Below, one piece after another: positions 2,193 to 22,842 of a DNA stretch of 33,446 nt. Position 1 is the stretch's first letter; each line of letters opens with the position of its first letter. Origin of the DNA: Parashewanella hymeniacidonis (GTDB lineage Bacteria; Pseudomonadota; Gammaproteobacteria; Enterobacterales; Shewanellaceae); NCBI RefSeq assembly GCF_016900895.1, contig NZ_JAFEUN010000051.1:1-33446 (forward strand), read 5' to 3'. The translations under genes were made by a program, and so were the position numbers. Below the pieces are notes generated by a model that saw only the letters and a list, made by a program, of their open reading frames with translations, did not search any database and was not told the DNA's origin.

Positions 2193-2499
2193 AAGCACAT
2201 TCCAATCATAAGGTGTTGATGTGAGGAGCTTATGAAACGGTAAACATTAATCACTCAATAAGTGCATACACATAATTGCGCACAATGTATATTATGTTAA
2301 ATAGGGTGTGGAGCTGATTATAATGATAAACTCGAACGCTTCACAAAACATAGCTCGAATTTATCGCATTTGATGGATCGTGATTTTCTTCTCAGCACTA
2401 TATACCCGAATCAAGTATTGTTCTGGTTCAGTGCCTAAATGAAACTTTCGCAAATTGAACCATTCTCACGGCCAATACCACACTTTTTAGAATTAAGAA
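2193..2499. other. gene-free gap between umuC and the convergent integrase gene
   Basis: Stops occur in all frames and I see no coding region. The stretch holds overlapping small palindromes around 2266-2296 (for example ATTG-CGCA-CAAT at 2275-2286). A short tandem repeat of AATTAAG units near 2489-2510 runs into the integrase stop codon. No convincing Rho-independent terminator is visible for either flanking gene. Confidence 0.5.
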
Positions 2500-3795
2500 T
2501 TAAGAATTAATACTGAGATGATCGAGCGGTTTATTTTGTGCTGATTGGTACCTTTCTACGTCAGTGGTATGTAGATATAAGGATGTTGTATCTATACTTT
2601 CATGACCCGCATCTTTTTGAACATGTGATAACGGCCGCATATGTATATTAATGTCATGGCTAATGCCTGTGTGGCGAATATTGTGTGCTGTTAGTTTAGA
2701 AATATCATTTCCATCTGATTCAAAGCCATCTTTTTTCATTTCTTCAGCTGCTTGTTGAATAATAAATTGAATGTCATCGCGGATCTGACGAATACCCAAG
2801 TTTGCATTTAAAACACCTACATCCCGTCCACGGCCTGCCGCTTTATGTCTTATGAATAGAGGATCTAATTCATCAGAACTGGGTAATTGTGATAATCCTA
2901 AATGACCACGATACTCTTTGAAAGCTTGTAAAAGATTTTTAGATACCGTGACAGTTCTTGATTTACCACCTTTACTGTTTGGTATATGAAACAGCCAAAT
3001 GCCTGTTTGACGATTCTGCTTAAACTGACTCATTACTGGTGAATATCCAGGTCTGGCAGATACTTCTGAAATTCGTAAATAGCAGGAATAAATCAAATTA
3101 ATGAGAAATTTATGGCGTGCGTACGTCGCTGAATCCTTTTTAGCAAGGCTGTTTACCGTAGAATTTACGTAGGACCACTGTAATTCAGTAAATATTGGTA
3201 GTATTTCATTCGCAGTATCGTTTCGAAATGTTTGTTTATTAGCAAAGCGACTGTGCTTCAGCCAAACTTGCGCAGTATTGCGTTCACAAAACTCCTCGCT
3301 GAGTAAGTAAGTATAGAAAGAAGACAAAATAGCAATCTTGGTTTTTAATGCGTTCTCACTGAGTCTATAAGCCTGTTGAGTGCCATTGACCAGTTTAGCG
3401 ATGAATGGTCTCCAATTCGCATTAGGTGTTCGACCTGATTCAGAACCTTTGAACTGAGCAACATTGTAATTACCAATTAAATCTACCGGTGGCTGCTTGC
3501 AATACTCGACATAACGGGACATATCTTTGCGTTTCAAATCTGCAGGAGACATAGCTGCTACATCAAAACACCAATGCAAAAACGTAGTAAGCTCACTACG
3601 ATAGGCTTTATAGTTATTTTCTTGATCTTTATGTTCATATAACCAATCTGAAGCGTGCTCTAACACTAAACCAGCATCCGTAACTTTATCAAGGCTGATT
3701 TGGGTAATGTATTGGTTGTTGTAACTATTACCTTCTAATAAAAACTCAGGTTTATCAAACAGCGGTAAAACAGGAGGAAGTTGCAAAATATTCAT
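2500..3795 (-). CDS. tyrosine-type site-specific integrase/recombinase
   Basis: The 431-residue protein has an N-terminal SAM-like core-binding region (about residues 40-180) and a C-terminal tyrosine recombinase domain. The catalytic set is complete: Arg241 (CYLRISEVSARPG), Lys275 or Lys278 in the beta-hairpin (PNSKGGKS), His371-x-x-Arg374 (TAHNIRHTG), His398 (DAGHES) and nucleophile Tyr407 (SLYLHTT). It should cut and rejoin DNA through a 3'-phosphotyrosine. It is convergent with umuDC and stands alone, with no other phage or ICE genes in view. Upstream lie an inverted repeat (3819-3844) and three TTACACAA repeats that could be its binding sites. It could be the integrase of a decayed island or a stand-alone recombinase; the sequence does not decide between these. 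Confidence 0.9.
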   Translation of the reverse strand: MNILQLPPVLPLFDKPEFLLEGNSYNNQYITQISLDKVTDAGLVLEHASDWLYEHKDQENNYKAYRSELTTFLHWCFDVAAMSPADLKRKDMSRYVEYCKQPPVDLIGNYNVAQFKGSESGRTPNANWRPFIAKLVNGTQQAYRLSENALKTKIAILSSFYTYLLSEEFCERNTAQVWLKHSRFANKQTFRNDTANEILPIFTELQWSYVNSTVNSLAKKDSATYARHKFLINLIYSCYLRISEVSARPGYSPVMSQFKQNRQTGIWLFHIPNSKGGKSRTVTVSKNLLQAFKEYRGHLGLSQLPSSDELDPLFIRHKAAGRGRDVGVLNANLGIRQIRDDIQFIIQQAAEEMKKDGFESDGNDISKLTAHNIRHTGISHDINIHMRPLSHVQKDAGHESIDTTSLYLHTTDVERYQSAQNKPLDHLSINS

Positions 3796-20453: not shown

Positions 20454-20482
20454 ATGAATAGCCTGTAAAACAGGCTATTCAT
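20454..20482. terminator. bidirectional hairpin between convergent genes
   Basis: ATGAATAGCCTGT (20454-20466) and ACAGGCTATTCAT (20470-20482) are perfect complements around AAA. The flanks are only moderately T-rich, so it is a weaker terminator than the one at 14821. It lies 13 bp after the CvfB-like stop and 4 bp after the collar-domain stop. Confidence 0.75.
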
Positions 20483-20486
20483 ACAT

Positions 20487-21008
20487 TTATACTTTGATGC
20501 ATTGCAGTAAAGCTATATAAGGCGGCATATTATTGTGAGGTGCATTATTCCCCTCTGCTTCTGTCCGTCTTTTTTGATTGAAGCGTATGCCAACGTCATC
20601 CCCTTGGCCTGTAGCAAATTCCGGATCTTTTCCTCTGTCCTCATAGTACCAATCACTATACACGTGAGTATGTCTTGGCAATTCTTGCTTGGTCAACTGG
20701 TGCTTTTCTTCGCCACCAATGTTTCCCAATTCATACACTGACAATCCCTCATGTTGGTCATTGAGTGAAATGGTAAAACGTCCTTTTCCAGGTTCAAATA
20801 CATCCCAACCATTTGGGCAATGTTGTAAGTTAAAGAAAGCAATAGTATTTGCAGGGACAACTTTTCCACTCGAATTTAACTTTTGTTCAAGTGCATTGAG
20901 TTGCTGTTTTAGAGTTAAATTAATTTCAGCCTGTCGTATGTGCTTTTGATAACTGAATATACCAACCACTGCCGTTAATAGAAAAATGAAACCAGAAATG
21001 TATTTCAT
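20487..21008 (-). CDS. membrane-anchored phage tail-collar-domain protein
   Basis: From the second ATG (21008) the protein has 173 residues. An N-terminal signal anchor (MKYISGFIFLLTAVVGIFSY) and a short coiled coil (about 25-46) lead into a tail-collar/microcystin-dependent-protein-like domain. That domain has IAFFNLQHCPNGWD, KGRFTISL, the metal-binding-type LPRHTH (His113, His115) and a C-terminal NNMPPYIALLQCIKV. Such domains normally trimerise phage tail fibres, so a membrane-tethered copy outside any phage is odd. A first ATG at 21038 would add ten residues ahead of the anchor; GGA about 6 bases before 21008 favours the shorter form. It lies about 50 bp after the recombinase gene on the same strand and may share its transcript. 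Function unknown. Confidence 0.75.
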   Translation of the reverse strand: MKYISGFIFLLTAVVGIFSYQKHIRQAEINLTLKQQLNALEQKLNSSGKVVPANTIAFFNLQHCPNGWDVFEPGKGRFTISLNDQHEGLSVYELGNIGGEEKHQLTKQELPRHTHVYSDWYYEDRGKDPEFATGQGDDVGIRFNQKRRTEAEGNNAPHNNMPPYIALLQCIKV

Positions 21009-21061
21009 ATAAAATCCATTTATTATTTTAATAAACAAACCATAACAGATTTGTTTGGTGT

Positions 21062-22213
21062 TTATCTATCCCAACGTGATTTTATCATTGCGCCATCTTC
21101 GGCCAAAATATCGCGACCGTATCGGTAAACCATTTCGATGCTACTCCATCTGCCAGATTGTTGAGCGGCGATATGAGAATGACCTTTCGCTAATAAATCT
21201 TGGCAAGCACCAACACGAGCAGAGTGCCCTGACCATCTTTCGATATTATGAACAATGAACGGATCGAATTGTTTAATATCTACTAGCGCCTTTTGAAATA
21301 TTTTATCTATCGAGTAACCAGAAAGCGGTTTTTGTTGTTCATATTCATTTAAGTTATTATGCCACTTTACCTTATTGGATTTTAAAATAGGACGAAATAT
21401 AACACCTGACATTGGGCTATTTAATTTATTTATATAATTTTTCAATATGTTAATGCACTCTCTGCTTAACATAACTTTGTCAGCCAAACCACTGTGATTT
21501 GTTTTTGTAAATGGAATCGTTAGAATTGCACGCCCATCACTACTGAAGCTCAAATCTGAAAACTTGATACGGGCTAATTCAGATTCCCTGAGTAATGTTT
21601 CATATGAAAAACAAAGCAACGCTAAATTTCTTACATCCGCTAATTTATTGCTCTCTGACCAGAGCTCTATTACTTTATCTAAATGAACTTCTTTAAAGGC
21701 TGCAACTTGTGAAATGACTTCACCTGTACGTGATTTTTGCTTTTTAATTCCTTTTAACAGTTGTCGTATACGTGCGCTTTTAGTGGGAGACGGTAATCCG
21801 GCTGCTTCATGGACTGAATTGACCGCCCAAATGAAAATTTGTAATGAGTTAGCTTTCGAGGTCTTACTTTTTTGAATCAAAAAACGTTCAAAGGTAATGA
21901 CGGATGATGGCAGAAATCGTTCTGAATTGACTGAACACCATTCAACAAATTTATTCCAATTGAACTGAATACTCTTTTTTGAGTTGTCAGAATAAAAATA
22001 TTCATTCTCAAGTGACGAGGTAAACTCACTCAGCAAAAGCGTAACTATCGATTGAATTTTTTCATTATTTTCTTGAGAGGGGGACTCACTTAGAATTTCT
22101 TGTAACTCTGTTTTCAAACCATCATTGGGGTGTTGAAGTTGAGAATAATAGGTTGAGTTATCACCCTTGATAGGTAGTGACTTGTTTATATTTAACGGTT
22201 CAATTTTCATCAT
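21062..22213 (-). CDS. Cre-like tyrosine recombinase
   Basis: The 383-residue protein resembles phage P1 Cre (343 residues) more than typical phage integrases. An N-terminal helical core-binding domain covers about 45-165. The catalytic set is Arg209 in TLLRESELARIKFSDL (Cre: TLLRIAEIARIRVKDI), Lys237 in PFTKTNHSG, His330-x-x-Arg333 in WSGHSARVGACQDLLAKG (Cre: SGHSARVGAARDMARAG), Trp356 (SGRWSS, where Cre has Trp315) and nucleophile Tyr365 (VYRYGRD). The end, EDGAMIKS, parallels Cre ETGAMVRL. Its start overlaps the end of the ribbon-helix-helix gene by 14 bases, so the two are coupled. A 34-bp lox-like palindrome lies upstream of the pair. Confidence 0.93.
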   Translation of the reverse strand: MMKIEPLNINKSLPIKGDNSTYYSQLQHPNDGLKTELQEILSESPSQENNEKIQSIVTLLLSEFTSSLENEYFYSDNSKKSIQFNWNKFVEWCSVNSERFLPSSVITFERFLIQKSKTSKANSLQIFIWAVNSVHEAAGLPSPTKSARIRQLLKGIKKQKSRTGEVISQVAAFKEVHLDKVIELWSESNKLADVRNLALLCFSYETLLRESELARIKFSDLSFSSDGRAILTIPFTKTNHSGLADKVMLSRECINILKNYINKLNSPMSGVIFRPILKSNKVKWHNNLNEYEQQKPLSGYSIDKIFQKALVDIKQFDPFIVHNIERWSGHSARVGACQDLLAKGHSHIAAQQSGRWSSIEMVYRYGRDILAEDGAMIKSRWDR

Positions 22214-22724
22214 CTGACCCTAAGCAATCTATATGGTCATGATATGTATCAACGAGAAACTCAATCGCAGAACTTAAGCTTTCTAGTTTTTCAATTTGTT
22301 TAATTTGCTCAAGTTGCTCATAAATAGGTTTTGCTAATTCAAGACGAACAAGCTTGTTCCTTTTCTTGATTTGACGTAGTTCGAAACGAACTGCACGCCA
22401 GCCTTTTTCTGAGAATATGCGATTCAAATTAATATTAATTACATCAAGGCTTTCAAATTCCGTATCTTTAATGGGTAAAGACTGCAGCTTCTTTAACAAT
22501 AAGCTCGTTTCAGAGATGTAGCTATTTGCGACCTTATCAGTGAGGTTACTATTATAGTTTTCGAATTTTAATACAACATTACTCCTACGAATCTTTTTAA
22601 GAAGGTACGAAGTAATTATTGGAAGGTCGTCTGGTGAAAGTAACAGCAGAGGGCGTCCACGCTTTTTATTTCCATCAACATATTCCCAATGAGGTGTTTT
22701 GTAATTCAAATGCATTACAGACAA
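22200..22724 (-). CDS. putative ribbon-helix-helix DNA-binding partner of the recombinase
   Basis: The 174-residue protein is not one I recognise by name. Near the N-terminus KKRGRP (about residues 20-25) is an AT-hook-like core. The middle is helical and charged. The C-terminal 50 residues (VRLELAKPIYEQLEQIKQ, then LSSAIEFLVDTYHD) have the strand-helix-helix pattern of ribbon-helix-helix proteins, loosely like the MatP C-terminus. It is the first gene of the operon and overlaps the recombinase gene by 14 bases. It may repress the operon through the palindrome at 22809-22842, or act as an accessory or directionality factor. Both ideas are inference. Confidence 0.6.
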   Translation of the reverse strand: MSVMHLNYKTPHWEYVDGNKKRGRPLLLLSPDDLPIITSYLLKKIRRSNVVLKFENYNSNLTDKVANSYISETSLLLKKLQSLPIKDTEFESLDVININLNRIFSEKGWRAVRFELRQIKKRNKLVRLELAKPIYEQLEQIKQIEKLESLSSAIEFLVDTYHDHIDCLGSDDEN

Positions 22725-22808
22725 AGTTCCGATTCATTATTAAGTAGCACCACTACCATAAATAAGCCTTTTAATTTCAAATTTTATGAAAAAAATTCGT
22801 TTATAAAT

Positions 22809-22842
22809 ATAGGTTGATATAATTAGCATTATATCAATTTAT
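22809..22842. repeat. 34-bp loxP/rox-like inverted repeat
   Basis: Left arm ATAGGTTGATATA (22809-22821), spacer ATTAGCAT (22822-22829), right arm TATATCAATTTAT (22830-22842). The arms match each other as inverted repeats at 11 of 13 positions, and the spacer core TAGC is asymmetric. The 13-8-13 layout is exactly that of loxP. The left arm equals the loxP arm at 9 of 13 bases and the right arm at 10 of 13 (loxP from memory). It lies 85 bp upstream of the operon start. A TATAAT on the minus strand (22828-22833) falls inside it, so it could also be the operon's operator. Confidence 0.65.

Follow-up and report, generated by a model that had tools for sequence, protein, structure and literature searches.

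We have analysed a stretch of 33,446 nucleotides from Parashewanella hymeniacidonis (hereafter the window; source assembly of 4.8 Mb in 307 contigs) and, within it, a three-gene unit that encodes a tyrosine recombinase of the Cre clade and is preceded by a candidate lox site. The genes ccoN, ccoO, ccoP, ttcA, speA, hrpA and that of an agmatinase identified the window as a chromosomal stretch. The unit lies on the minus strand between a cvfB-like gene and hrpA and consists of a partner gene, the recombinase gene and a tail-collar-like gene. The recombinase (positions 21062 to 22213, 383 aa) was assigned from its phmmer match to P1 Cre, its catalytic columns and its place in a tree. The partner, a putative DNA-binding protein recognized from its homologues and a C-terminal pattern, is encoded at positions 22200 to 22724 and would have 174 aa from a TTG start or 171 aa from an ATG at 22715; its open reading frame overlaps the recombinase start by 14 nt. 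Genes, overlap and upstream palindrome were all located where an initial annotation of this DNA had placed them. The palindrome, ataggttgatataATTAGCATtatatcaatttat at positions 22809 to 22842, is considered a candidate lox site from its 13-8-13 structure and from comparison with relatives, and has the asymmetric spacer ATTAGCAT. It had been described as standing 85 bp upstream; the measured distance is 84 bp to the TTG start of the partner (93 bp to the ATG), and its arms pair at 11 of 13 positions.

The recombinase was compared with the sequences of solved structures, where P1 Cre was the best match (phmmer, E 4e-34, residues 74-379). Seventeen of the 18 matches in this set were Cre or Cre-derived proteins, the last being a chance match (E 0.48), and curated Xer models scored the protein at no more than 24 bits. 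With an identity of 27% to P1 Cre, the recombinase has the complete catalytic R-K-H-R-W-Y set in the Cre positions, all seven positions examined, by the usual Cre residue numbering, being kept. The motifs that the initial annotation had quoted as specific to Cre are present together with Trp356 and Tyr365, the latter two without variation across a 19-row Cre alignment. A 51-row tree with XerC and XerD as outgroups placed the recombinase inside a 28-row clade with Cre, Dre, VCre and SCre and not among ordinary integrases. After its counterpart in Shewanella sp. OPT22, its neighbours were the recombinases of pSx1, pPN3F2 and two further loci (L104, L105), all from Shewanella, in a six-row clade with a Shimodaira-Hasegawa-like approximate likelihood ratio (SH-aLRT) support of 95. 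The tree was built by a quick method with SH-aLRT as the only support measure; long branches were flagged elsewhere in it and one XerD row is a fragment. Judged from these comparisons of sequence, the recombinase belongs to the Cre clade and is nearer to Cre, Dre, VCre and SCre than to XerC and XerD.

Taken alone, the palindrome is not a rare structure, since stretches of the 13-8-13 kind that pair at 11 or more of 13 positions occur three times in the window, the lox site being one of them. It stands above chance because a palindrome recurs at the same place in relatives and because the site is identical at 34/34 positions in OPT22. On the plasmids pSx1 and pPN3F2, the corresponding position ahead of a homologous partner gene is taken by a perfect 13-8-13 palindrome, and so it is in L104 and L105. 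At 16 of 22 recombinase loci (window and OPT22 included), the 1.4 kb upstream contained a palindrome whose spacer is 8 bp long and whose arms pair at 11 or more of 13 positions, in a scan that recovered the known loxP, rox and VloxP sites; base-shuffled upstream stretches gave such a palindrome at 0.25 of 22 loci on average and at 2 at most. The six loci lacking an upstream palindrome were those of SCre, pASP135 (only 137 bp of upstream sequence covered), pSA70-3, pSBAL11701, the Moritella genome G036 and the chromosomal gene of G055. SloxP, the site of SCre, is 3.6 kb upstream of the partner gene. A palindrome pairing at 12 or more of 13 positions was found no further than 1.2 kb from the recombinase, on one side or the other, at 41 of 80 loci on genome contigs. 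Four Moritella loci and two with loxP are among the 41; the site of OPT22, of the window type and pairing at 11/13, falls below the threshold of this count.

The lox site is single in its own genome: no further copy of the 34 bp was found at up to 3 mismatches in the 307-contig assembly. Among 258 loci, the exact 34-mer occurred only in copies of the window and of OPT22, and its 24-bp core had no exact match in IMG/VR. The predicted lox spacer of Shewanella sp. UCD-KL12 (L105) is also ATTAGCAT, in the opposite orientation to the operon and between different arms.

The closest relative, OPT22 (G001), keeps the whole unit, and the partner and palindrome recur in other Shewanella relatives. The sequence adjoining the lox site in OPT22 has diverged to 73/84 identical positions (86.9%) in one spacer and 75/82 (91.5%) in the other. 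For cre, nonsynonymous (dN) and synonymous (dS) divergence from OPT22 were 0.0099 and 0.264, a dN/dS of about 0.04. The partner gave a dN of 0.027 and a dS of 0.153, the third gene a dN of 0.035 and a dS of 0.314 (dN/dS about 0.11, nucleotide identity 92%), and the cvfB-like gene a dN of 0.0046 and a dS of 0.085. By these ratios, all three genes of the unit are under purifying selection. Cre genes of Shewanella are the nearest kin of the recombinase, and two of these genes are on complete plasmids; a plasmid origin of the unit is likely from the tree. The earlier suggestion of a decayed plasmid may hence hold for the origin and does not hold for the decay, the frames being open and cre having the low dN/dS given above.

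The sister recombinases of pSx1, pPN3F2, L104 and L105 share 46, 39, 45 and 42% identity with that of the window, respectively. In all four, a homologous partner gene precedes cre, with an overlap or a gap of no more than about 55 bp, and the perfect lox-like palindrome is upstream of this partner. They differ from the window in the RTGGTNNNACCAY repeats, about 106 bp apart, that flank their lox sites. The complete records pSx1 and pPN3F2 are plasmid-borne, whereas the window is chromosomal, and their third gene encodes a DUF2913 protein in place of the tail-collar-like protein.

A canonical dif site, absent from the account of the initial annotation, was found in the same window by a site search (ATTGCGCACAATGTATATTATGTTAAAT, positions 2275 to 2302, plus strand). 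Over its last 26 bases it is identical to the dif of Shewanella oneidensis as printed in PMC2731167. The lox site lies 20.5 kb from dif, and the Cre gene 18.8 kb from dif in the window and 18.7 kb in OPT22. A random site would fall this near to dif on a 4.8-Mb chromosome with a chance near 0.9%, a distance that counts only as a lead because it was noticed after the fact. The own genome, like 8/8 genomes searched, has a XerD that passes the curated cut-off and another strong match, of XerC type. Checks of the window for GC skew and for motifs like the FtsK-orienting polar sequences (KOPS) were uninformative.

We have then examined the wider order with a Cre profile (A1, one Moritella row included). 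Run on 394 genomes, it gave a match at E ≤1e-30 in 60, many of these matches being on small or plasmid-like contigs without dif. Moritella had a Cre match in 11/11 genomes, with a complete catalytic set. Each of the 11 also has exactly one copy, at up to 2 mismatches, of a site TTTATTTCGTNTAACGGNCATTATACGAAATAAA, which lies downstream of the Cre gene by 0.7-0.9 kb. This 34-bp site forms a conserved island in poorly aligning flanks, and its arm ends in TTCGTATA, like that of loxP (L089); a direct IMG/VR scan with its core returned nothing. All 11 loci share two upstream neighbours and a convergent gene of 135 aa between cre and lox. In G195, the site is about 230 bp upstream of this small gene, whose product had a sub-threshold match to RHH_3 (E 0.0028).

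In the eight Moritella genomes with gene and dif on one contig, the distance between the Cre gene and the best-matching dif was 21.4, 22.6, 29.7, 29.9, 30.0, 31.1, 34.5 and 53.9 kb. The two were split over contigs in two other genomes, and in G036 no dif match was found near the Cre gene at up to 3 mismatches. Four Moritella genomes, assembled in one to three contigs, allowed a comparison among chromosomal XerD-model matches (E 0.001, one per open frame), with the Cre genes of G147 and G118, missed by that model, taken from the Cre profile search. The Cre gene was the nearest to dif in 4/4, the others being 69 kb to 2.4 Mb away. In the tree, the Moritella Cre proteins form a lineage separate from that of the window. 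Thus, the placement near dif either arose twice or is very old.

Recombinases of a sister branch of the Cre clade lie still closer to dif. In Vibrio, they were 0.9-4.5 kb from dif in 18 of the 20 loci examined (L233-L252, distances measured within the pieces of these loci), and no dif match was present in the 20 kb examined for the other Vibrio-type genomes, G202 and G114. In all 20 proteins, Arg-I is replaced by Lys and the catalytic His by Gln or Asn, and Lys201 has no aligned counterpart; since these residues are lost, the proteins look catalytically dead. The Vibrio-type loci are on contigs of chromosome-1 size and of chromosome-2 size. In family f6 (L224-L229), a Cre-sister recombinase with intact catalytic residues is 0.9-1.3 kb from dif in 6/6 genomes, one of which (G225) has two more matches on another contig. 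In two other families, one genome each has the sister recombinase near dif, at 0.85 and 2.2 kb, and in G106 gene and dif are on different contigs. Counting the matches measured on contigs above 1 Mb, 20 of 22 had a dif-like site within 54 kb; the misses were G036 and G202, and one further match on such a contig (G143) is outside this set.

Based on the single site, its position and the Moritella parallel, we consider that the unit would be a plasmid-derived Cre/lox system resident in the chromosome terminus, kept by the host as an accessory resolver of chromosome dimers beside XerCD/dif (probability about 0.55). With one lox site per chromosome, neither deletion nor inversion could result and Cre would act only between sisters, in dimer resolution or formation. 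Because of this single site, and because Cre works from the terminus region (ter) in Escherichia coli, the accessory resolver is favoured; among the three roles put forward in the initial annotation, a resolution system is likewise the favoured one. In the proposed mechanism, a Cre/lox multimer-resolution module of plasmid origin would have settled in the terminus. A homotetramer of the recombinase would bridge two sister lox copies by binding their 13-bp arms, and strand exchange within the 8-bp spacer would convert a dimeric chromosome into two monomers. Septal FtsK would bring the sister lox sites together, as it does for dif, about 20 kb away. The location near dif and the conservation of the unit are shown directly; activity on lox, the dimer role, the dependence on FtsK and the role of the partner are what we infer.

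An engineered precedent exists. In E. coli, Cre-loxP inserted in ter can take the place of XerCD-dif, and its action depends on FtsK guided by KOPS (PMC2680272), the replacement being also described in PMC2731167. The dif::loxP strain with Cre is a terminus Cre/lox system as proposed here, yet artificial (PMC2680272), and a chromosomal Cre/lox near the terminus hints that such systems may help to untangle chromosomes in nature too, as they are known to do in laboratory constructs. The 2009 survey reported no evidence of loxP/Cre-like systems in dif/Xer-deficient proteobacteria (PMC2731167); the organisms studied here, unlike that group, are not dif/Xer-deficient. Among the papers listed by our literature search, none reported a natural chromosomal Cre/lox at the terminus; the papers on VCre/SCre (Nucleic Acids Research 2011) and on new Cre-type recombinases (Nucleic Acids Research 2023) were outside its scope.

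The system has Cre-clade membership and the catalytic set in common with P1 Cre/loxP, Dre/rox, VCre/VloxP and SCre/SloxP. As in P1, D6 and p0908, a 13-8-13 site is upstream, and as in P1, p0908 and ANA-3, a small gene precedes cre. It differs from the P1 Cre type in being chromosomal and near dif, where the P1 type resides on a phage-plasmid or plasmid, and in having its own arms and spacer, recombination here being predicted from sequence. With XerCD/dif it shares a short palindromic site, one per chromosome, in the terminus, and the use of tyrosine recombinases; the recombinase of the window is however of a different clade and encoded beside its site, and XerCD/dif is present in addition. 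The single-recombinase systems XerS/difSL and XerH/difH likewise link a recombinase gene to a terminus site, but are of Xer type and stand in for XerCD, a comparison drawn in part from PMC2731167.

A more general proposal, which we advance tentatively and at somewhat less than even odds, is that natural Cre/lox dimer resolvers at the terminus exist beside XerCD/dif and have arisen at least twice, in the lineage of the window and in Moritella. They would have shed or replaced the accessory sites of plasmid type because FtsK does their job. The sister Cre-like branch 1-5 kb from dif in Vibrio and other families would then comprise possible accessory dif factors, dead in Vibrio. Such natural chromosomal candidates in organisms that keep XerCD make two side-by-side dimer-resolution systems directly testable, and those of the window and of Moritella make testable how plasmid resolution modules turn chromosomal. 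Both also supply candidate orthogonal recombinase/site pairs.

Several observations weigh against a dimer resolver at this place. The zone of dif activation in E. coli is given as about 10 kb either side (PMC5357621), and both the window lox (20.5 kb) and the Moritella systems (21-54 kb) are beyond it. This distance of some 20 kb is the main weakness of the interpretation; because of it, the lox site is only possibly dif-like in its working and is not of dif type. Since XerCD and dif are present, Cre/lox is not needed as their replacement, and chromosome termini may gather horizontally acquired genes anyway. The silent divergence of cre and partner (dS 0.26 and 0.15) exceeds that of the flanking cvfB-like gene (0.09), so that a purely vertical descent with the flanks is not proven; the excess may reflect codon usage or exchange. 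Only two genomes have the unit at this place. In three other genomes of the genus no close relative of it was found, cvfB and hrpA not being adjacent there. The RTGGTNNNACCAY repeats of the plasmid kin are missing round lox in the window and OPT22. Elsewhere, a Cre-clade gene of Pantoea coffeiphila (L131, on a 1.25-Mb contig) had no dif-like site in its 10-kb flanks.

Some of these points would fit a module that arrived on a plasmid or mobile element and does nothing for the chromosome, foreign DNA collecting in the terminus. The silent divergence above that of the flanks, the restriction to two genomes, the loss of the flanking repeats and the plasmid-borne genes among the nearest kin are all consistent with such a relic. 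It would leave unexplained the purifying selection on all three genes and the unchanged lox site, and also the separate Cre and lox kept genus-wide in Moritella, where other recombinase matches are scattered over the chromosome; we therefore hold it to be unlikely, if the most serious of the alternatives. The action of the relatives on plasmids would instead suit a landing pad or guard, in which the chromosomal Cre integrates, excludes or resolves incoming replicons with a matching lox. The recurrence of the spacer ATTAGCAT in the predicted lox of UCD-KL12 agrees with this, but the arms differ between relatives, which would make cross-recombination unlikely, the own genome has no second copy of the site, the 24-bp core lacks an exact IMG/VR match and the exact 34-mer was confined, among the 258 loci, to the window and OPT22 copies. 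Such a function appears improbable to us.

The position just upstream of the operon, and the frequency of such palindromes in the window (about one of this quality per 11 kb), could also mean that the site is mainly an operator for autoregulation by the partner or by Cre and not a recombination site. The 13-8-13 architecture, common to loxP, rox and VloxP at a like place, argues otherwise, as does the Moritella site, which lies 0.7-0.9 kb behind cre and not ahead of it and whose arm end TTCGTATA is that of loxP; this explanation seems distinctly improbable. A device for DNA inversion, as proposed in the initial annotation, or for excision would need a second site. With a single site in the assembly at up to 3 mismatches, inversion is disfavoured and we consider such a device very improbable, a collapsed or missing copy being conceivable in 307 contigs.

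For the partner, a role as a DNA-binding regulator is probable, acting either on the operon or on the synapse. Homologues were found on 16 Shewanella plasmid records. The neighbourhood was examined in 14 of the 16: in 13 the homologue immediately precedes a Cre match in the same orientation, and on NZ_CP091834 the nearest recombinase gene is more than 1 kb off and on the opposite strand. Among the 80 genome-contig loci, homologues occurred in three (L103-L105). Diverged homologues were also found: in G002, G003 and G029 they lie close to other recombinases, and in G009 homologue and recombinase are on separate contigs. The diverged pair is about 12.5 kb from dif in G003 and about 64 kb in G002, and in L076, L077 and L078 diverged partners stand beside another recombinase type, with His replacing the catalytic Trp.

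The initial annotation had labelled the partner a ribbon-helix-helix (RHH) protein, and its C-terminus does have a conserved pattern that reads like RHH. The label was not confirmed: Pfam gave no RHH match, NCBIfam no support, and the best Pfam match was DLP_helical (E 8e-5), under the cut-off. In Foldseek, the best E was 2.5 and none of the 50 listed matches was named RHH. A profile search matched 2kel, presumably an RHH protein, weakly (E 0.45) over the C-terminal 51 positions, and an AlphaFold model from a 4-row alignment had two C-terminal helices (mean predicted local distance difference test score 77.9).

The RTGGTNNNACCAY repeats of pSx1, L104, L105 and pPN3F2 flank lox at a spacing of 105-107 bp and are possible accessory sites for the partner. 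Over five loci, we have found 8 matches of at least 9/10 against a shuffled mean of 0.08, the window contributing none. This strong figure is post hoc because the motif was redefined, after the sequences had been read, from TGGTGNNNCACCA, for which the matches numbered just 3 and the shuffled mean was 0.32. One copy of the pair in pPN3F2 is only 8/10, and further 9/10 matches, one or two per locus, occur elsewhere in all four loci. The spacing round lox (L052, L053, L104, L105) is about ten helical turns. Between lox and partner, the window has a short inverted repeat, GTAGTGGTGCTAC on the gene strand (positions 22744 to 22756), inside a block unchanged in OPT22. It is a possible operator and resembles RTGGTNNNACCAY only loosely, failing an 8/10 match.

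The third gene (positions 20487 to 21038, minus strand) encodes a protein with a tail-collar/Gp10_C-like domain and, by eye, a hydrophobic N-terminal stretch; it matched PHROG tail families (E 2e-8) and Pfam Gp10_C under the cut-off. It is possibly co-transcribed cargo, and an odd one for a recombinase operon, right behind cre. A hairpin scan placed a terminator-like hairpin with a T-rich tail 3' of it (positions 20454 to 20482, minus strand), one of 3 terminator-like sites in the stretch against a shuffled mean of 1.7. Of the flanking genes named in the initial annotation, hrpA was confirmed, whereas the CvfB-like label was not, the gene having weak S1-domain matches only. No phage structural cluster is present in the window, as had been noted, and with no IMG/VR relative by peptide patterns a prophage or phage island was rejected. 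The recombinase matched 28 phage records at 25.6-32.3% identity. Two of these are Vibrio phages, one is without annotation, and the rest are P1-, P7- or D6-like phages or their relatives.

A Xer-type site (up to 2 mismatches) was present in a flank of 13 of the 80 Cre loci L103-L182, 12 from Enterobacterales and one from Vibrio, and a reversed control pattern in 0 of 80. Replicons with both a Cre gene and a Xer-type site may carry two resolution systems. Beside the dif of the window, at 198 bp, is the gene of a tyrosine recombinase of XerC type (positions 2500 to 3795, minus strand, 431 aa), which domain models and the tree place in a family separate from Cre. This family also stands beside dif in OPT22, G002 and G003; part of such a gene is beside dif in the piece examined of G009, and an N-terminal match is beside dif in G046.

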